DNA from: Cylindrodendrum hubeiense
Taxonomy: Eukaryota; Ascomycota; Sordariomycetes; Hypocreales; Nectriaceae
NCBI GenBank assembly: GCA_014621425.1
Contig: JAANBB010000046.1
Coordinates: forward strand, 1-64,000
Direction of reading: 5' to 3'
DNA length: 64,000 nt
In this document: positions 36,062 through 61,638 of the stretch, in pieces
Layout of the letters: the number at the start of each line of letters is the position of its first letter
Position numbering within the stretch: position 1 is the stretch's first letter
Notes under the pieces: model-generated
The model's database searches: none
Told to the model about the DNA's origin: nothing
The model's input: the letters and a program-made list of their open reading frames with translations, nothing else
Program-made: the position numbers and the translations under genes

Positions 36062-38321
36062 CTAGACTAGAACCAAGTCTGAGTGCTTTTCTGTGTTTTC
36101 AACCACCTCCTGGTCCCCCTTCATCACTGGAGCATTTATGTGAAACAGCCCAAGCCTCATGAACTGTTCCACTGGAGATGCTTTTCTGCTATCAGACCCG
36201 ATGGGCTGTACGATAAGTGCACGATAGGACCAATCCTTGTCAGAGTTGCCACCGACCAGTCGAGTCTTTGACAGGAATACCGCAAACAATTCTTTTCCTT
36301 CGATCCATGCTCTTACATCTTCTGTTTGCTCCCCAATTCCATCGAAATTTGAATATGCCCCAAACGGGTCTCCATTGGGCGTGCATAGCCTGTAGTCGCG
36401 GCGAAAATTCTCAGGCAACGATTCATCATCCTTATCTGGAAGCTCGCTGATATGCAACTTGATCAAGGGAGCTCGCAAGGAAATCCAACCGCCTATAACC
36501 TCACCGTAGGGATTTTGAACGTTCTTCGGGGTCACGCTCCAGCCAGTGGCTACTGCCACATCTGTCCAACTCTGATATCCTGTCCCATGTACCGATGTCC
36601 CTCTGTAAGACCCCCAACTCCAGGTTGGTGCAATACATCCTGTCTCACCTGGCCGAGGAATCTCGTCTCGTAGGCGGCCCTTTTCATGTACACTTCCCAC
36701 GCTTTGCCAGCCTAGGCCTTCCACTATTGCGTCACTCCAGAGTCCAGCTATATACTCGATTTCGGTTGCTGTACCTAGGCTGTCAACCAAGTTTCTTTTG
36801 GTCTTCAATCTTCGTCCAATCAGTATTGCTAGTCCTGAAATAGCTGGAAACCGGTCCGATTCAACCGTCAATCGCCGCGAGGTGAAATCATCTAGAATGA
36901 AATACCACAAGTGATGAGTTTCTCCATGCCTTGAATTCCGAGCTGTCGCCGTTAATGAAGTCTCCGGTCCTGGATACAGCGAGTTCCATCGTTCTGGGAC
37001 TACTACACCGGCTTCCGATACGAAGTGGCTATTACACTCGAAAAAGAGCTGATCGGTCGCAAAATGCAGGATTCGATACGGAAGAAGACGCTCCTGCAGG
37101 GCCCACGCTCTAGAAGCCAGGGGCTCGGCCTGCAGTCCAAGAGTGTAGCGTTTGTCTATTGTGAAGGTGGATGTAGGATGCGCCCAAGAAGGAATGACCG
37201 TAGATGTTTGGCCGGTTGTTTCGATGCTCTGACACGACGCAGTCAGCGGAACGGGTATGTATCGTTTTTCTGGACGTTTGAAAAAGCCTTCATCACTGCT
37301 CAGCGCGTTGTCGGCGGCAAGTACCACATGGGCTCCGGCATACACGTCTGCCATGGCCGCAGATTCTTTGACCAGTCATCAGCATCATCTTGACAGATGC
37401 AAAGTGAATCAATCCACAGGTATCGAATACCCAGATGTCGAGTGACCTTGATGGCGTCCTGAAACGTCTGTGGGAGGTCTTCAACGAAGATACCATCGAC
37501 ATAATCTGGAAGGGTTTTCTGAGTCGTGGTCATAACATGCCCGAGGCCACCGGTTCCCCAACAGTGACTGAGTGCAATGTATGAGCTTGACTTGGTACCG
37601 TGGGTTTCCAAAAGACGAACTCTATTCACCTCACCAAGGGAATCTAGGTCTAAAACACGTGAGGGCAGTTTGCCTGATGGAGGCAGACAATACTGGTGGT
37701 TTGCCACACAGTGATGCAGCCAGCCGGCAGCCAGGTCTAATGGATCTCTAGACCCAGCATCGGGGTGAATTCTTTGGCCACGAATTAAACCAGAGTCATC
37801 TGCTTCGGCTGATATCTGGTTAAATTTACAGCCCCAAGACAGCACGGAAGCAGAATGAGCATACCACGTTCCACAGACAGTTCGACCACAGCTAAAAGAT
37901 ATAAGACCCCGCTTTTTTTACTGTTTGTGAGGACTGCAAACCCATCACCGCCATCGAAACGCTGTACTAGTCGAAAGCTTGATGTCACAGGCAAGCCATG
38001 GCCGTTGCGCTCAACAGGGGAGAATCTTGGGTAAATTTCCAGCTTCAAGTCTCGAAACTCAGCAGCCAAGCATTTGAACTTCTCGAGAACAAATTCGCAA
38101 AGGGGGCAGTCGATTGCACATTCTTCCAGAGAATGCAGGCTGGGGTGATACGGCATGCTAACTGTATCCCAGGATTTTGCGCCATTTCTATGATTCCAGA
38201 AATAGGGTGTACCAGAACCTGTAATGAGAGACCCCAGCCAACCCCACTGGTCTTGTGGGAGGACAGGAAGCTTTGTCGGGACTACCAAAGCAGCGAGGCA
38301 ACGAGGGCAGACAGACATCAT
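36062..38321 (-). pseudogene. HET-domain protein, frameshifted
   Basis: A heterokaryon-incompatibility (HET) gene of about 730 codons. Exon 1 (37865-38321) starts with a Cys-rich region (SVCPRC … CAIDCPLC). A 56-bp intron (GTATGC…ATATCAG) leads to exon 2 with the HET core: YIALSHCWG near 37570, then YLWIDSLCICQDDADDWSK near 37400. At about 37370 the frame breaks: the continuation expected in the family, ESAAMADVYAGAHVVLAAD, is present directly after but one frame off, consistent with loss of one A from an AAAA run. The rest, to 36062, is an intact open frame. HET proteins trigger cell death after non-self recognition, and disabled alleles are common. A sequencing error in the run is the simplest alternative. 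Confidence 0.8.
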
Positions 38322-40643: not shown

Positions 40644-43600
40644 CTAGACAGTATCCGCGCCCATTGCATACAACCTTGTCCACTCACGGGCTGTTTGGTA
40701 ATATTTATGCCGATCGTTGCTCCAAAAATCCGCAGCTAACACATTGACGGGATCTCCTAAAGGCTGTCGTTCCAACATCGCGTAAACTTCATTTAAGCCT
40801 TGTTACATATTAGATATCGCAGGGTTGATCTGTGCATTCGTTGCTCTGGAGCACTTACACTTCAGGATAGTCAAACTGCGAACCCAGTATGGAGTCCTCG
40901 CAGAACCACCGTCTTTCAAGCTAATCCTTTTGTATTTTTGATCTGAAACCCAAATTTCATTACATATATCTCCATTGGTTTCCACGAAAGGGTGGAATAT
41001 TTTCGTGTGGAAATATATGTTTGGCGGACAGTGTGGATAGGCTGTAGGGAGGATGACATCGAGGTAGAAAGCCCCTCCTTCGTAGACGGAGTTTTTCTGA
41101 ATAACAATAGGTTAGATTGACCCTGGCTAGTTTGAATAATGCCAAAAATGCTACAATGTCAAGCGGGGCTCTTACTGGACCGATAACCACGGCACGCCAT
41201 TTTCCGAGCTAGTTTCGAAGTCAGCTATCTTCAACGCCGAATGACGGTTGGTGATTCCTACATATTTGGATGGGAAAATCCGCACATTCTCAGAGCGCTC
41301 TCGCTCCCAAGAGTGTATTTCTCCGATAATCCTCGATATTGCCTCTTTGGAAAGGTTAATGTTGAGTTCAGGTCGAACAACAGGCAGCGTTTCTGGTGAA
41401 CCTTGTGTTTGTAGCACTACAGATGTTTCGTGTTTGTGGGGTTTATGACGCAAAACTGAGGATTGGACCGCGCCATGGGCAATCATTAAGTCGATAACCC
41501 GTTGATCTCCACAATCCTGGGCGTCGTCCAAAGCAGTTCTTCCCCAGGCGTCGGGTTTGTTGAGACCGAACGCGGCATCGATAAAGATGGATACTGTTTG
41601 AAAATGCCCGTGACGAGCCGCATGGTGTAGCGGAGAGGCACCATCAAGATCTGTGATATCAGGATCGGCCTCTCGATTCCACAAAAAGCTCACAGTCGTA
41701 GCGTGCCCTCTGGCGGAAGCCTTGAGCATGGGGGTTTCATCAAAGAAATTTTGAGCGTTTTGCGGACAACCGAGATCTCGCAGTACTTTGCAGCAATCCG
41801 TATATCCTTTCGCGGCTGCAATATGAAGCGGTGTGTTTCCGTCATTGTCAACTGTATCCGTTGCCGATCCAAGCCTACATAGCTCCTTAATAACACCTGG
41901 AAAGTTTCTTTCTGCAGCAATGTGCAAGGCAATCTCCCCAAGAGACGTCCTGCCATGAACAAGGTCAGGATCCTGGGAAACAAGTAGCCGTGTGATGTTG
42001 ATGCTTCCTTGAGCCGCTGCGCTATGGAGAGATGTCCAATTGAGGGTTGTGCCAACACTTGGATTTGCCCCTGATTTCAGAAGAAAGGCAACGATATTAT
42101 CTCTGCCATTGCTGATGGCTTCGAGTAGGGCCGTTCGGCCACCCCGGGACCTCGTATCAAGCTCCACCTTGTGTTTGTGGAGTAATTCCACGGCTTTTAA
42201 TGTTCCCCGTCGACAAGCTTCGTGTAAGGGAATGTAATCAGTGACATAGTTAGGGACTCCGTTCGGAGACGCTCCGTGAGATAAGAGAAGTCGCATAATG
42301 TCAATCGAGCCAGCCTCAACAGCTGCGGTAAGGGCGGTTGCACCTTCTGAGTTTGTCTCATCCACCGGAAATTCGTCATCAAATTCACCGTCAAGCAGGA
42401 AAATACACTCTGGTCGTAGGCCGAGCCGAGAAGCAAACCATAGCGCAGGCGCTTGCTTTGGAGACGTAAAACTATACTTGTCATACCTGCTCTCTGGTAG
42501 CAGATATGCTTGGATACAGCTCTCTCTGTATGGGGCCTCCGTTAGGATCTTAAGGCGAGAATCGCTTGGGTCCACTTCGCTGCTAGCTGACTTCTGGGTG
42601 TGTGTTGCCCATGATTTGGCAGCATAGAGCAAGAAGGGGTGGTTATTGAGCCGCAGGTTCATCTCATCATCGTCAACGCATCGCCCGGTAGAAAATGCGT
42701 CAAAGAGAAGGTACGTCTGACAGGCTTGCGCTAGTTCCCCGTGAATTTGATCCAAAGAACTGATGGATTTCGACTCAAGGTACTGTTGAAAGTACTGTTG
42801 GAATGTTTGGTGAACAAATCTCACAGCGCGACTCCCTTCATCAACAGTAATGATGCCATCACAAGCCAAAATAATAGCGTCGATATTGAGAAGGAATTTT
42901 TTCTCCTGGCTGAGATCCTCGGGCTCAAGTGAAATTGCGCATTGGAGTTCATCGATTTGAAGAGGGCGAGAAGCACAAAGTACCCAGCCCATGAGACTCT
43001 TCGCGTAAGTTGCCATCTTAGATGAAAGGATTCGGGAGATAAATTCCGAGTAGATTGAATCAGGATCCTTGGGAAGCGATTGGAGGGCTCGGATAATATT
43101 GCGCCCTTGACATGAACTGAGAGTATTCATTAAAAGACGAGCCATCAAAAACCTATTGGTGTCAGTAGTCTGTAACAAATTAGTTAGGCATGAAACTCAC
43201 ATTTCCTTCGAGCGTGCTTCTATCGAAGAAATGATTTGGTCGCGAAGCGTCTCGTCCCTCTCAATGTGCCATAAGAGATTACTGTCTGCGTCAATTCGGG
43301 ATGACGTGTACCTGCGGACATCCTCTGGGTCTGGTTTGATTTCGGCAACTTGAAAGGTGTCGGACCACTTTTCATCACGCGCCTGTCTTGACGTGACAAA
43401 AATATTTGCATTTCCACAACTGGTGAGATACTCTAGAAGGTCATTCCCAGAATCGCTGAGCTCGTTCAAAGCATCCACTATGATGTATATCTTGGTGTAG
43501 CTGGATGTTACCTCTTCGAAAACTTGAGTTACGTCTTCTAGTTTGGGCCGTACTCCCTTCGCGGATTTATCATCGTATATACCCTGAACCAGTTCAGTGA

Positions 43601-44683
43601 GGGCAGGTTCCAAAGCCAACTGCTTCCATATAGCACCGATTAGATTGGCAGTGGTCTGGTTTTCTCGGTCTTGGTAGTTGCAGAATATGGCGGCAACGCC
43701 GACGTTTGGGTTAGACGCGAAATCTGCTCTGAGCTTGCGAAATAAAACTGCCCTATGAGGGATTAGTACTTCATACCCTAGCTCTCCTGAACTGTGTCAT
43801 ACGATTGCATGGTTTTACCAGATCCCGCTTCAACCTATTAGTACCCTTGCGTGTCATTGAAACCATGAAAAGCTTACGTATGCCAGCGCACCACAGCCTC
43901 GGATGTGTATCTTCAACCCATGACTTCACCGCAGGCGACTCTGTGAATAATTTACAGGTGTCCTTTTCGTGGTTTACCAAGATGTCATCCATAGTAATAA
44001 AGAAGTTTAGCGGCGAAAACAGCAAATGTACTTTCTCTAAAAGGTTGGCTTGTGCCTAGTCAGCAGGTAACATCAGGCAGGGATTTGGCAGGGGCTCACA
44101 ATCTGAACGCGACACCAGCTTTTTTGTGTGTTGCCTCAACTCGACCATTCTCCCAGGAAGTGACTGAAGAGCATTTGTATCCTTCTTAATTTCAAGAGTA
44201 ATGGTCCTTGATGTGTGGTCAGCTTGCGGATCTCGAGAATAATGACCAACGCGGAGCATACTGCAAGTCCGTTACTAGGAGGAATTGAACCCATGAGAAG
44301 AGTCGGTGGATGTTCAGCATTATTTCGGCACAGTCCTTTTTGTCAAATGGCCATTTTAGAGCCTTGACCATCTCGCGCCACCGCTTCTTTTCCTCATCAA
44401 GTAATAGTGGTTTTTTCAACTCATCGAGCACGCCTTTAACTTGATCAAGAAGTCCACCGGGCTCACGCAAGGACTTTGTGCCAAGTGACAGCCCATCATT
44501 TCGCTGTTCTGCGGCCGTAACCAGAGGCTGGAGAATACCCATGAGTATTTGCAGGCTATTGACCTCAGATTGCAGTCGGCTCTTTTCCTTGCTACTGTGA
44601 GCAACATCCTTGGCATATGACAAGATAAAAGCTCCAGCTTCAACAAGGGCTATCACGCTTGCGGCTGCCCCTATGGCTTCCAT
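40644..44683 (-). CDS. NLR-type STAND protein: Helo-like, NACHT, ankyrin repeats, C-terminal E2 (UBC) domain
   Basis: A protein of about 1,200 residues. The N-terminal helical domain (MEAIGAAASVIALVEAG…) is of the Helo_like_N type. NACHT: Walker A AGIPGSGKT, formed across a 50-bp intron and carried on a 25-nt microexon (43803-43827), Walker B IYIIVDALNEL and sensor FVTSRQ. Nine ankyrin repeats follow in the 41262-43152 exon. That exon ends with a helix like an E2 N-terminus (EAISRIIGEIHSWERE); four GT-AG introns with matching phases then add exons 41176-41208, 40859-41096 and 40644-40798: KWRAVVIGP, YEGGAFYLDV, YPHCPPNIYFHTKIFHP, GDIC with the catalytic Cys in register, SLTILKCLNEVYAMLE and YYQTAREWTRLYA. 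HPN is HPF. The junction near 44230-44280 is off by one frame; I could not resolve it. Confidence 0.8.
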
Positions 44684-55737: not shown

Positions 55738-57489
55738 TCACGGCCTCAAATAAATCCATATTGCTCTGCATGCGTTGCATTTCGGTATCCGTCGCTCCAC
55801 CCCAGCCGCTCGTTCTTGTGTAGCCCTAAGCGGCCCCCAGAGACACGCCAATACAGCGTCGGCGTAGTCGTCGCCCATGTAATGAGGCAATCGGAGTTTT
55901 GCATGTTTCCCCAAAGTACGCTTGATAGCGTCGGGATCCATAGTATTCCCATCAACATCGGTGGTGAACTTCACATCTATATGAATGGCGGGCTGCCATA
56001 ACCCGATCTCGAGGAGCACGACGCCAAGCGCGTATGCATCGTGCTGCGCGGAGAAACGACTGTCGGGTGGGCCCTGTCTGTCCGGATGCCGATATACGTT
56101 TCGGCCTGGCTGCGAGTCTTGCTCGAGAGTGGAGACATCGCCTTCTTCTCGCGCAAACTCGAAGCCTACTAATACGGGGCGCGCGTAGTCACACTCTGTC
56201 ATTGGTACCTCTGTCTCAGGTGCTTGCGAAGACTTTCGCCATGGGATCAGCACGTTCTCACTGCGAATTGACTTGTGTAGCCAATTGACAGAGTGCAATT
56301 GGAACACAGTCAAAGCGAGGGCCCTTGCCATGGCGAAGCGCTCACTCAGCGTAGGCCGACACGGCCCGGAGCGGCCTCCGATTCCACTCCTTTGTAGAGC
56401 ATTCAATAGTGTGTATGGTGCGGTAGCATCACCAGCCCCCGTGCCGAAGTCTCCCTCTGGCAGTTCAAAAGTGTAGGCATAAGCTGTGGTCGGCGCCGGA
56501 AGGCGAACGACACCGATGCATCTCAGCGTACGGAAGCCAGCGTCAGGTCCTGACGCGTGCGCAAGTAGATCGGCTAGCCGATTTATACGCTGTATCACGG
56601 CTTGCGACGGCTGGAAGGCACGTCGGCGCAATGCGAACGGTTTCATTTCGATGAAGACGCGGATTCGCTCCGACTCACCACTGCCAGCAGGAGATGACCG
56701 AAAAAGTGTTCCAACCCTGGCATCCGATGAGGACAACTCCAGTCTCAGGCTCAGTTCGTTTATCCAGTTGCGTCGAGGCGAGTTGTCGGCTTGGTCTTGT
56801 GCGGCGATGAGCGCGCGGAGGCTCAGTCCTCCGGACAATCCCAGGCCTTTGCTATTATCAAGTATTAGCCAACTTGCTCCAAGAAATGGACTTGAAGTTA
56901 TTCACACTGCAGTATCTTCGGCAGGTGTAGTTGGAGGACTCTTCTGTCCGAAACACAAGCCACAGAAAAGCAAGCTCATCAGACGGTCATTCCACTCCTT
57001 GATCCCGTCCACAAGTCGAAACACTCGTTTTTTCTCAAACAGGCCCCACGTGAATCGATCAGTGATGGTGGCTCCGATATTAAGGCTCTCAATTTCGATA
57101 CTCCTCTTCTCATCCAGCTTGTCATTGAGTCCGTGTTCGAAAGACCTGGCATATCCGCCCTGCAGCTCCGCTACTTTGTGCTTGGCCACAAAGTTAGAGT
57201 ACGCAGCAAATTGAATATCCAACTCCTGGATCAGTCCCAAGATAGCGCTTTGGACCGAAGTCGGCAGCATCTCGAACTTGGGCGTTGTGCTATCCGACTT
57301 TTCCTTCAAATACTGTGACAAGTATTGCAGTCTTGCCGTCTCGACGGCCAACCGTGTCCGCAGGCTCGCAACATCGCTACCGAATCGTCGTGCATCGGCT
57401 ATCAGTTGATATGTGAACTGCAGCACATGGATCGATGAATTCACGGCCTCGATGGCGAGGCCTGTCGCACCGATGGCTAGCTCAATCAT
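55738..57489 (-). CDS. HeLo-like domain fused to a pseudokinase
   Basis: Two exons (56906-57489 and 55738-56851; intron GTGAAT…TAATAG, phase 2) give 565 residues. The N-terminal 190 residues are helical and start MIELAIGATGLAIEAVNSSIHVLQFTYQLI, as in HeLo (prion-inhibition-and-propagation) domains, which form membrane-permeating helical bundles in HET-S-type proteins. The C-terminal 350 residues follow a kinase fold with damaged motifs: a VFIEMKPF strand, LHKSIRSENVLI in place of the HRDxxxxN loop (catalytic Asp is Ser), VGFEFAR in place of DFG, and HDAYALGVVLLEIGLW for helix F. It should bind but not transfer phosphate. The layout, a four-helix-type death domain plus pseudokinase, is that of animal MLKL. 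It is divergent from an active-looking kinase-ankyrin gene. Confidence 0.75.
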
Positions 57490-57784
57490 GTCTGCTCCGG
57501 TAGTGATGAATGTGAGCGCGCAGCTGAATCCGTAATCCGCGCGTCTTCGACCGCCACACGCACATCTGCCCAAGAACAGCCATTGGCCCGGATAATTCCC
57601 TCCTCTCAGATCCTCTGCCTCATTATCACGTGGGTTTATGTCAGAAAATGGCAGCCGACATGCTTCAACCTGACGAGGCTGGCGGATTGAATCTAGAACA
57701 TGACCAAAAGGTTGTCTGCGCAAATTTCCTACGTACTCCCCCATAACTCTAGAGAGACAGCCCCGAGGTATACTTTCCTCCGAA
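57490..57784. promoter_or_regulatory. Bidirectional promoter of HeLo-pseudokinase and kinase-ankyrin genes
   Basis: Only 295 bp separate the two divergent start codons, so both genes very likely share control elements. The minus-strand frame stays open through this stretch up to 57861, but the HeLo domain begins at 57489. Confidence 0.5.
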
Positions 57785-59261
57785 ATGTCGATACAATCTA
57801 ATCGATCGCGCACCATCCTGAATAACGACCATATCGCGTCGTTGCGACTCCGAACGATCAAGGACTTTTGCGAGGTGCTTCAGAGCCGCCACGTTCAGAG
57901 AGTGACACTCAATAGCTATAATGACTACCGCTCAAGAGTACTGAGCAACCGTGGCAGCCAGTTCGTCGTCTATGCAGGAGATGGGGTCGAGCTATTTGGC
58001 CAGCCGCCCGTCGTCATCAAATGTGCCAAGGTCTTCCTCAGTAATGACAGCCTGCCGCACAAGCAAGGAGCTGCGGTATGTTCGGAGTCCCATGTGGAAA
58101 TATTTCGAATCGGTGATGCGCAAGGCAATGCCTCGTACTAAATATCTTGTAGCAAGTGGCGAGCGCACTGTACCGGGAAATCGCAGTCCTGACGCATCCC
58201 CAGCTTCGGGAGCAGGAGAATATTATCAGATTACTCTGGTACGACTTTGTTGAAGAAAATACAAATGCATTTGTACCAGCCCTTGTCGTGGAGCGGGCTA
58301 AATTCGGCAGTCTGGCATCCTTTCTTGACACCAAAGGTTTTACACTAGATGAGGCCGCCAAGATTCACATATCCGTTGGCGTCACTGCCGGCCTGCTGGC
58401 CTTTCATCACACATCCATCGTACATGGAGATGTCAAAACTGAGAATATCCTTGTGTGTGAATCAAGTTACAAGGACAATCCGTTTGGGTTTACTCCTAAA
58501 GTGGCTGATTTCGGGTCGTCCATTTTCACTACTCAAGATAGCGAGCTGCCTTGCTATAATGGAACTGCCTTAACAAATGCACCGGAGGTCGGTGAACAAT
58601 CCTCGCTTGCTCGTCTTGATGCGTTAGGATTAGTGCGCTGCGATGCATATTCACGAGGGCTTCTGATATTTAATGTCATTGTGGGCGACTTGCCGCCAGA
58701 AATGACAACGAAAAACGCAGCGGTGGTACTCTTCGCACAGAGTGTGCTCCCATCAACCAACGTATCTGTCAATGGTCAGGGAAGTTTCTCATCTGTGTTT
58801 CAGAGTCTTCTGTCATATGACCCTCAGGCCCGCTGGGCAGACCTGGATAGCGTCATATCAACACTCCAAGGAGTCCAGACTGACCCCCGGGTAGGGTAAG
58901 CATAATTATCCAAACATATTATGGACTAGTCACTGACTTACTTTAAAGTAGCTCAAAGGCTGGCTTTCCCGTACCACAAGAACGAAAGCTTGTTCAAGTC
59001 TTTGCGGACGCTTCTTACTTCGATTTCACCCTCGACGTAGAGTTAGAGGCCGAGCGAGGTATTCAGGCCGACGTCTTTTCCAATCTCCAAAGGAATTCCA
59101 GGTCTTCAGACGCGACAATAACCGGCAAGGCTCTTTTTGAGTTAGCACTGGCTAGCTCAATTGGTTTCGGAACCGCCTGCAGCTTGGACAAGACCCTCGA
59201 CTATGCTATCCAGTCTGCCAAGAAAGGTTACCTACCTGCCATGGCAGTAGTCAGTTCGTAG
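57785..59261 (+). CDS. Protein kinase, N-terminal part of a kinase-ankyrin gene, ended by in-frame TAG
   Basis: Three exons (57785-58075, 58153-58895, 58952 onward) run to a TAG at 59259-59261, giving 447 residues as read. The kinase motifs are complete: Lys in VVIKCAKVF, Glu in LYREIAVL, HGDVKTENIL (HRD variant with catalytic Asp and the metal-binding Asn), DFGSS, and NAPEV for APE. A region of Sel1-like or helical character follows (DKTLDYAIQSAKKGYLPAMAVV). Beyond the TAG the same frame goes on without change for 135 codons and then, through one intron, into ankyrin repeats, so the stop appears to cut a longer kinase-ankyrin protein. Whether the short form is functional is open. Confidence 0.75.
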
Positions 59262-61638
59262 CACCATGTCCATGATCGGGAACCCCCAGTAAGTTCCGAG
59301 AGTCAAATCGATTGGCTCTTCGAAGCGACGGCCTGGGGCTCCATAGCGGCTGGTGCTTGTCTAAAGAAACTGAGTCTGGACCAGTACGCGGCAGCCCGGA
59401 TCGCATTCCATGAAAGCGGCGGTTACAACCAATTTTATCACAATTCAGTCCTACCGGCGCGTATTATTTCTCCTGATTTTATTGCATCCATCGCTATTCA
59501 GTCGAACAACGATTTGGATGAGCTTGCACGGCTAGCTGCTATTCACGGTGCCAGCCACTTGATGAAACACCTGCTGCAGGTCTGCAACGTGGATTCTAAT
59601 CTTACTAATAACTGGGGTGAGTCGTTATTATTACTGTGCTGCAAAGCTGGCCACCTGAACGTTCTCAGAGTGAGTTTTCTGTATCTCGTCTAGATGATAA
59701 AAGCCCACTGATACCATCCTGCAGATTCTCGTTGACGGTGGTGCGAAGGTTGCTCACAGGTCGGGCTCTGCAAGTCAGAGAACTGAGTCTCCGCTTCATT
59801 GGTTGATTGCCTTTGAGGATGACCAAATCGAACAGGCAGCCCGTATTCTAGAGCGTGCTGGTGGCGATTTTGACTCCAGCGCCAACATGACTTGGAATCA
59901 CCCTAGCATTGATCTGCCGGGCCGGTTTCCAATTGGAAGTCCATTTCAATACGCTGCATTCTTCAACAACGCCGCATGTGTAAAAGCATACATTGATTTG
60001 CTCAGAATCCCAGCAAATTGGCCCGGCTGCTCTGAACTTACCCCCTTCGAGTTTGGCTTCTCTCGCCGAAAACTACAGTTCTCCCGGGCCATGGTGGCGA
60101 AAGTGTGTCTTAACGACGTGGATGAGAACTCACAGGCACTGCTTGAGTTTGCCGGCCTGTTAAAGTACGAAAGCTGGATAGCTGCTGCTGTGGATTCACT
60201 ATCACTGGCCTCCCATGTAGGCGCGTGCTTGGACTTCCTGCTTGAGGCCCAACCTGGATATCTGGATGGCACAATCGACGGTGGCTTTACGCCTCTGATG
60301 CATGCTGTCACCTACCGCGACCCCATCGTTGTCGAGGCCCTCATAAACCGCGGCTGCGACGTCAACTCGGAGACATCACGAGAGATGGGCCAAAGAACGG
60401 CGCTAACATTTGTAACCGCTACTAAAATGCAGCATGAGCCGGATAACATTGTTGAGCTATTGCTGGAAGCCGATGCCAAACTCGACCATCGTAGTAATGA
60501 CAGCGAGATGCAACCATTACATTTCGCTGTCCAGAATGACTGTCCGCTCACCACACAGAAATTGATCAAAGGAGGCGCAAACGTAAACGATTACAGCCAG
60601 CTGATAGGCACTCCATTGCACAGGGCTGTCTACTACGGGTCCGCCGAAGCAACTAGAGTACTTCTCGAGGCCGGTGCAAATCCGCATGCTGAGTACCCAT
60701 TGGGCAACATGCACTCGCGCAGCTGGGATAAACTGACGCCGTTGGCCATCGCTGCCACGCGACCACACCAACCGCTTGTTGAGCTCCTCCTCAGATACAA
60801 CCCTGGCTATATTGCAAGGCCTCTCTCCGGTCACAGTGTACTGCATCTCGCCATCGCGGAGAGGGACTCAAACATGCTCCAAAAACTTTTGAGCATCTCA
60901 TATTTTAGACAGAAAGAGATTGTGAACCACCAAACAACTATGGGTGTCACAGCTCTTGTTCTCTGTGCCACGAATCCAGGTCGTCATGGTCACTTAAAAA
61001 TGCTTCTTGGAGCCGGCGCAGACCCAAATATTGAGACAAACTCGGGCCACACGGCTCTAGACGTCGCTATTCAATACTCGGAAAGCCTCAAATCATGGTC
61101 AGACACCATTTTGCAGTGCCAGCGCAGCAGGGACGTGCATTTGCTCGAAGATCTCAGAGGCGAGGCGTATCGTATGTTGGGAGCCATCGCCTCCCAGGAC
61201 GTCACTGCCAAAGCCATCATCCTTGCCGAGGCTGGGTCGGCCTTTGAAGACGATGTCATCACCATCTTTAGTAGACTATCGCCAAGTGCATTTGAACATT
61301 TAGAGGAATTCGAGGAAGATTCTGACGACAAAGAAATGGAGGACGTAGGTAATTACTCATATTCAGCGAAGGATGGCTCTGAACCAGAACTATTGGGTTC
61401 AAGTGCGAGCGTGGAACTACAAAACGAGAATAACTCACTTGGCGGGGGGTGCGAGGAAGTATATTTTGATGTTCAGGCTGAGTTGGATTTCTGGGATTCT
61501 ACGATACGACTGCTAAATAGCGCCGGCGGAAGAAGGTCAAGTCGAATCCCATTTGATCGACATTTTGCCGGGTTACTGGATTGGAGACCGGAGGGCATTC
61601 CCGCGTCGTATTATGGAGGTCTTTATAACGACTCCTAA
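59262..61638 (+). pseudogene. Ankyrin-repeat part of the kinase-ankyrin gene, downstream of the TAG
   Basis: The frame continues directly after the stop (REPPVSSESQIDWLFEATAWGS), crosses a GTGAGT…CCTGCAG intron at 59670-59724 (NVLR|ILVDGG) and then stays open for more than 610 codons. Repeats are clear: GFTPLMHAV…VVEALINRGCDVN, MQPLHFAV…TQKLIKGGANVN, GTPLHRAVYYGSAEATRVLLEAGANP, HSVLHLAIAERDSNMLQKLL, and GVTALVLCA…HLKMLLGAGADPN. The C-terminal end is acidic (EEFEEDSDDKEMEDV). Such a long undamaged repeat region argues that the stop at 59259 is recent, bypassed, or a sequence error. As an alternative, this part could be expressed as a separate protein from its own start. Confidence 0.65.

Follow-up and report, generated by a model that had tools for sequence, protein, structure and literature searches.

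The stretch of DNA analysed here, referred to as the window, comprises 64,000 nucleotides of the ascomycete Cylindrodendrum hubeiense (contig JAANBB010000046.1 of assembly GCA_014621425.1, positions 1 to 64,000 of the forward strand). On its minus strand, from 44683 to 40644, lies a gene that in our splice model joins a fungal NOD-like receptor (NLR) to a ubiquitin-conjugating enzyme (E2) domain. Modelled as a single gene, it has nine exons and encodes 1197 amino acids once spliced; all eight introns are of the GT-AG type, measure 48-79 nucleotides, and keep the frame open throughout. Exon 1 (44262-44683) holds the start codon and an N-terminal domain that is probably HeLo-like, and is followed by exon 2 (44206-44100) and exon 3 (44048-43878). 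Exon 4 (43803-43827) is the NACHT microexon claimed by an earlier note on this DNA: it is 25 nucleotides long and finishes the Walker A motif GIPGSGKT, which is split over the junction with exon 3. Exon 5 (43201-43752) supplies the remainder of the NACHT-type NTPase domain, and exon 6 (41262-43152) the winged-helix region, the ankyrin repeats, a linker and helix 1 of the E2 (residue 1026 at 41354). Intron 6 (41209-41261, 53 nucleotides) links this helix to WRAVVIGP, part of the segment LGKWRAVVIGP encoded by exon 7 (41176-41208). Beyond intron 7 (41097-41175, 79 nucleotides), exon 8 (40859-41096) encodes the E2 core, including an HPF that replaces the His-Pro-Asn (HPN) motif, the predicted thioester cysteine Cys1112 (codon TGT at 40962-40964) and an 18-residue insertion after it. 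Following intron 8 (40799-40858, 60 nucleotides), exon 9 (40644-40798) encodes the C-terminal E2 helices (AREWTRLYAM) and ends with the stop codon.

The receptor part of the predicted protein is recognised by Pfam. NPHP3_N matches residues 206-364 at 92.4 bits and along the entire profile (1-164 of 164), with the Walker A motif starting at residue 232; the NACHT profile itself (PF05729) stays under its cut-off (13.2 vs 26.7 bits). Downstream, GPIID_WHD matches residues 474-548 at 33.7 bits, followed by ankyrin repeats (Ank_2, 171.2 bits). An NTPase of the NACHT type with a Walker A motif, combined with C-terminal repeats, characterises the product as a fungal NLR, i.e. a receptor of the signal transduction ATPases with numerous domains (STAND) type, for which a sensing function is predicted. 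Pfam does not match the N-terminal domain directly at E≤1, nor does the HeLo family PF14479 match anywhere in the protein at this threshold, which sets the protein apart from the HeLo-E2 proteins discussed below. Seven other loci of the same genome align with this N-terminus, the alignments starting at or before query residue 10. Four of these (on contigs C43, C2, C165 and C548) overlap matches to PF17111, listed as PigL_N, which we take to be a HeLo-like family; of these matches, those on C2 and C165 fall short of its cut-off, and the relatives on C562, C634 and C290 do not overlap any. As such, the ‘Helo-like’ label of the earlier note agrees with four of the seven relatives and lacks a direct profile match, and we consider the domain to be probably HeLo-like.

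Without splicing, the ankyrin frame stops at 41172, its final codons encode E2 helix 1, and this frame end scores about 0 bits against an E2 profile. Helix 1 thus sits within the ankyrin exon, and the first methionine after M982, which belongs to the last ankyrin repeat, is M1154. For the splice test, the region 41600-40400 was allowed up to three introns of 45-110 nucleotides, and the resulting 7363 models were scored by a profile built from UBE2D2 and 19 E2s from the HeLo-E2 family (including P0016, which itself has no HeLo match), the E2s of the window and of Thelonectria being excluded. The top model, at 102.7 bits, uses exactly the three E2 introns that had been proposed in the earlier note, whereas the best two-intron and one-intron models reach 89.2 and 53.4 bits. 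That note had counted four introns carrying the ankyrin frame into the E2; the introns and the joining hold, and the E2 part has three of them. Leaving out intron 41175-41097 lowers the best score to 92.9 bits, leaving out 40858-40799 to 98.6 bits, and leaving out 41261-41209 to 98.8 bits, the last being a variant with its donor at 41285 that lies 3.9 bits below the top; without the acceptor at 41208, no model exceeds 89.6 bits. The exact single junctions are therefore less sure than the join itself. Dinucleotide shuffles of 41261-40400 yielded no match to the E2 profile in any of 30 cases under HMMER default filters; these shuffles allowed between 96 and 9631 models each, most of them fewer than the 7363 of the real sequence and only one of them more.

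Profile search of the spliced protein, which had been suggested as a check, finds beside NPHP3_N the E2 family UQ_con at residues 1033-1186 with 93.1 bits. The match covers profile positions 1-139 of 140, in line with the claim that a whole ubiquitin-conjugating (UBC) domain is present, and UBE2D2 aligns to residues 6-167 of the E2 query. Of 285 solved sequences that match, the best 60 all belong to UBE2D/Ubc4-type enzymes or their near kin. C1112 aligns to the catalytic C85 of UBE2D2, and both this cysteine and the equivalent of the downstream aspartate D117 are kept in the window E2 as well as in that of a relative from Thelonectria olida; at D87 of UBE2D2 both have a glutamate. A further feature shared by these two NLR-E2s is the insertion after the cysteine (18 residues in the window, 20 in Thelonectria), which places the next conserved tryptophan 27 and 29 residues away, compared to 9 in UBE2D2. 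In a tree of 24 rows the two form a pair at 99/98 support, and the next by tree path are UBE2D2 and a Ubc4-like E2 of the same genome on contig C798; most deeper branches of this tree are weak, its bootstrap is unsettled, and several of the canonical E2 rows are partial.

The Thelonectria relative (P0001) is a protein of 874 amino acids, annotated as ankyrin repeat-containing, with the domain order NACHT, winged helix, ankyrin, E2; its annotated model begins inside the NACHT domain. It was the single match among 68 candidates when proteins of NLR length were searched with the E2 part. A search from its own E2 returned only itself and P0023, a metagenomic protein of 490 amino acids with the E2 at its N-terminus, HPQ for HPN, and some 320 residues after it that have no significant Pfam match. 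With its E2 at the start and no NLR domain, P0023 was rejected as a further NLR-E2. Over 939 columns that include the E2, P0001 is 40% identical to the window protein. Within the Cylindrodendrum genome, P0001 matches the window gene best (48%, 427 bits, residues 7-512), ahead of the next receptor at 33% and 175 bits (52 of 389 candidates scored), and therefore the two are likely orthologous. By part, identity is 43.1% in the NACHT part (267-440), 48.0% in the winged-helix region, 46.7% in the ankyrin repeats and 41.7% in the E2, as against 19.4% in the linker. With the E2 about as conserved as the NTPase, it appears to be constrained while the linker drifts. Both genera belong to the Nectriaceae. 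The fusion probably predates their divergence, although a later transfer from one to the other may be an alternative. Together with splice modelling and Pfam, this similar, singly annotated protein bears out the proposal of a fused sensor-E2 gene, and we consider its anatomy as a single gene well supported by the sequences.

E2 domains are joined to cell-death-type domains elsewhere in this genome too. Three further genes combine HeLo (PF14479) with UQ_con according to Pfam: L003 (322-1986 on contig C379), in which a serine replaces the catalytic cysteine, L004 (364-2007 on C46), to which the protein P0002 is identical, and L007 (391-2292 on C212). No NACHT domain or repeats were found in these three by Pfam. 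A search from L004, in which 8000 candidates were scored, returned 21 proteins, 17 of which carry both HeLo and UQ_con, two of these 17 being from this genome; the relatives include proteins from Cylindrodendrum hubeiense, Fusarium and Sarocladium. The HPN asparagine is present in 18 of 19 rows of this HeLo-E2 family and the catalytic cysteine in 17 of 19. For the E2s of this family, the best 60 of 320 solved relatives are again UBE2D/Ubc4 and near kin. The tree does not group the HeLo-E2s with the NLR-E2 pair, its deep branches being weak. The E2 of L007 has a 19-residue insertion after the cysteine, at the same place as in the NLR-E2s (28 residues to the next tryptophan, vs 9 in UBE2D2), and despite this shared place it is not joined to them in the tree. 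In the predicted structure of a HeLo-E2, with a mean predicted local distance difference test score (pLDDT) of 60.7, the 50 structural matches listed are E2 structures only and the HeLo fold is not confirmed; an AlphaFold model of P0001 from its single sequence is uninformative (mean pLDDT 39.9). No RBR/IBR-type ubiquitin ligase (E3) gene was seen beside the HeLo-E2 loci, as none of the 16 IBR matches in the genome is on C46, C379 or C212. As a separate observation, the Fusarium longipes protein P0019 (‘ibr finger domain’) contains an IBR together with a HeLo domain that closely resembles the one in the HeLo-E2 proteins; this could be an IBR-HeLo fusion, or annotation may have merged two adjacent genes, and the protein is not used here as support.

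Within the genome, UQ_con has 33 matches on 23 contigs, and residues 1-696 of the window protein have 68 matches (64 of 135 candidates scored). Only two contigs occur in both lists: the gene's own (C401), and C46, where ~258 kb separate the two places. Of the other receptors, the five with the highest scores show 29-31% identity and are on contigs without a UQ_con match. Among the receptor matches scored, the window gene would thus be the only NLR with an E2 seen in this genome. One of the weaker UQ_con matches, L047 (2985-4211 on C171; 29.9 bits vs a cut-off of 27), is a 409-codon frame that overlaps the end of another frame, presumably PARP-like by resemblance. Elsewhere in the window, a HeLo-domain frame (56908-57879, minus strand, 43.8 bits) has a DUF7580 frame directly downstream at 55744-56901, and the two are perhaps one gene. 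The frame at 36068-37375 (minus strand) has a marginal match to HET, the heterokaryon incompatibility domain (21.0 vs a cut-off of 22.5 bits), and that at 59701-61635 (plus strand, 645 codons) carries ankyrin repeats.

So what could an NLR do with its own E2? The reading that we favour, and to which we would give an even chance, is that the E2 integrated into this fungal NLR is non-canonical but probably thioester-competent and passes on ubiquitin after receptor oligomerisation. A non-self or modified-self ligand would bind the ankyrin repeats and in doing so free the NACHT domain to oligomerise, which would gather several E2 domains, each charged with ubiquitin on Cys1112. From the charged E2 the ubiquitin could then pass to a transthiolating E3 or to acceptors other than lysine, with either a bound partner or the receptor itself as the target; the cell-death output of the N-terminal domain would thereby be supplemented or held in check. 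Where the earlier note saw recognition linked directly to ubiquitin transfer, the fused architecture stands; the link itself we infer, as we do charging, transfer, targets and the connection to cell death. The retained cysteine allows for charging, and the missing HPN asparagine makes ordinary transfer to lysine doubtful. E2s without this asparagine can nevertheless be active: UBE2J2 (PMC10971424) and the UBE2Q family (PMC9527308) are, in passages of these two works, reported to modify hydroxyl groups.

Several observations weigh against this reading. The HPN motif is HPF in the window and HAC in Thelonectria (N77 being F and C), and with this asparagine missing the window domain is, judging by its residues, not a canonical E2. 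Its equivalent of UBE2D2 F62 is a histidine (methionine in Thelonectria), those of P95 and A96 are arginine and serine (proline and alanine in Thelonectria), and those of K4 and K8 are serine and glycine. We take these five UBE2D2 positions to contribute to RING or E1 (ubiquitin-activating enzyme) contact, so that the changes in the window may weaken such binding. The Thelonectria E2 has lost W33, P40, P76 and P118, all of which are kept in the window, and UQ_con matches it only over positions 35-139, which would reflect either decay or a faulty gene model. Among the HeLo-E2 rows, two have lost the cysteine (P0005 has a tyrosine, P0017 a serine). No NLR-length protein with the exact E2 of the window turned up in the search of the protein database, and therefore public annotation seems to miss or split this gene. 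Finally, the full architecture recurs in a single relative among the proteins found; as the protein searches need shared five-residue words and similar length, this number is a lower bound.

The main rival, which we hold to be possible at a clearly tentative level, is that the E2 is an integrated decoy or sensor: a Ubc4/5-like bait that detects a parasite or non-self factor attacking or binding E2s and then triggers the NLR, without any need for catalysis. The location of the domain, C-terminal and beside the ankyrin repeats, counts against a catalytic role and in favour of such a bait, for this is where NLRs of the Sordariales carry SPRY, zinc-finger and PKinase domains, which in passages of the study describing them are often binding or decoy-like, the PKinase domains being proposed as decoys copied from CHK-2 (PMC12258605). 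That the nearest solved E2s (the best 60 of 285) are of the generalist UBE2D/Ubc4 type would suit a bait too, as would the asparagine missing in both NLR-E2s, the altered RING-contact positions in the window and the conserved residues lost in Thelonectria. The integrated domains of wheat NLRs likewise include ubiquitin-conjugating domains, though signalling roles are suggested for them in the part of that report concerned (PMC7422411). Against a bait stand the cysteine and downstream aspartate, kept in both proteins at ~42% identity, and the E2s fused to HeLo domains without any sensor, with the asparagine and cysteine largely intact. Because of the cysteine kept in both NLR-E2s and these sensor-less HeLo-E2 proteins, we favour catalysis over a decoy. 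Self-control seems to us improbable: here the E2 would ubiquitinate its own receptor in cis and keep the level of an auto-toxic NLR low, which fits an E2 physically attached to a receptor with which it has been conserved, but the missing asparagine speaks against ordinary auto-ubiquitination on lysine, going by passages on E2s that lack it (PMC10971424, PMC9527308). That the NLR ends at 41172 and a separate or decayed E2 gene joins it in frame by chance is very improbable and is rejected, since the stop codon at that position and the lack of a full-length match in the search of the protein database are outweighed by an E2 helix 1 that lies in the ankyrin exon without a methionine of its own, three in-frame GT-AG introns that top 7363 models, shuffles without a match, and a Thelonectria protein annotated as one with its E2 at the same place.

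A broader conjecture, which we consider rather unlikely as it stands, would be that Nectriaceae and their relatives possess a ubiquitin-writing arm of fungal cell death, in which the NLR signals through the non-canonical, possibly non-lysine, E2 that it carries, and in which the HeLo-E2s, with a pore-type death domain linked to a Ubc4-like E2, act as executors downstream of it or in parallel. More generally, an NLR-E2 in two genera and HeLo-E2s in the same genome raise the question whether ubiquitin transfer takes part in fungal non-self recognition, or whether, instead, receptors carry the E2 as a bait because E2s are what fungal parasites attack. As far as found in the open-access literature, both answers would be new for fungi, and if the catalytic reading is true, ubiquitin may be wired into fungal self-defence.

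Known outputs of fungal NLRs include amyloid, HeLo, lipase and nucleosidase. In the published model, as given in parts of PMC12258605, the repeats sense, the NACHT domain switches and the N-terminal domain acts. The statement of the earlier note that no fungal system of this kind is described fits our literature searches: no description of an NLR-E2 or HeLo-E2 fusion was found in open-access text, supplements excluded and judged in part from titles and the beginnings of abstracts. Terms for ubiquitin and UBC reveal no fungal NLR with an E2 domain in the main texts of PMC9815663 (which deals mainly with N-terminal domains), PMC12258605, PMC4986451, PMC12881547 and PMC10197012. The terms ubiquitin, UBC and UQ_con are absent from the main text of PMC4986451, and that of PMC12258605 has only one reference title with ‘ubiquitination’, its table S11, whose 185 non-canonical domains may include an E2, lying outside the search. 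In the table concerned, PMC5982333 gives UQ_con and NACHT as separate genes, and passages of PMC3499355 describe repeated origins of NACHT-ankyrin proteins in fungi, with no E2 fusion in those passages.

Compared to known systems, the window gene shares with the fungal HeLo-like/T-NACHT/ankyrin NLRs the tripartite order of N-terminal domain, NACHT-type NTPase and ankyrin repeats, as outlined in parts of PMC12258605 and PMC4986451, but it adds a whole UBC domain after the repeats. P0001 is alike in its architecture, kept cysteine, missing asparagine and insertion; it differs in length, in a model that starts within NACHT, and in a UQ_con match that begins only at position 35. With Ubc4, Ubc5 and UBE2D the window E2 has in common a near-full UBC profile, the catalytic cysteine, the downstream aspartate and the ending AREWTxxYAM, whereas its fusion to an NLR, the HPF, the insertion and the changed RING-contact positions set it apart. 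The HeLo-UQ_con proteins (P0002-P0015, P0017, P0018 and P0022, and the loci L003, L004 and L007) also join an E2 to a cell-death-type helical domain, yet nearly all retain the HPN asparagine, and the three from this genome showed neither NACHT nor repeats. UBE2J2 and UBE2Q, as described in parts of PMC10971424 and PMC9527308, similarly lack this asparagine and possess the catalytic cysteine. They are not NLRs, however, and in sequence it is UBE2D that comes closest to the window E2. Plant NLRs are of the NB-ARC/LRR type and presumably of independent origin from fungal NLRs. Those with integrated domains nevertheless resemble the window gene in having an extra domain grafted onto an NLR, which in wheat, according to the relevant part of PMC7422411, includes ubiquitin-conjugating domains.

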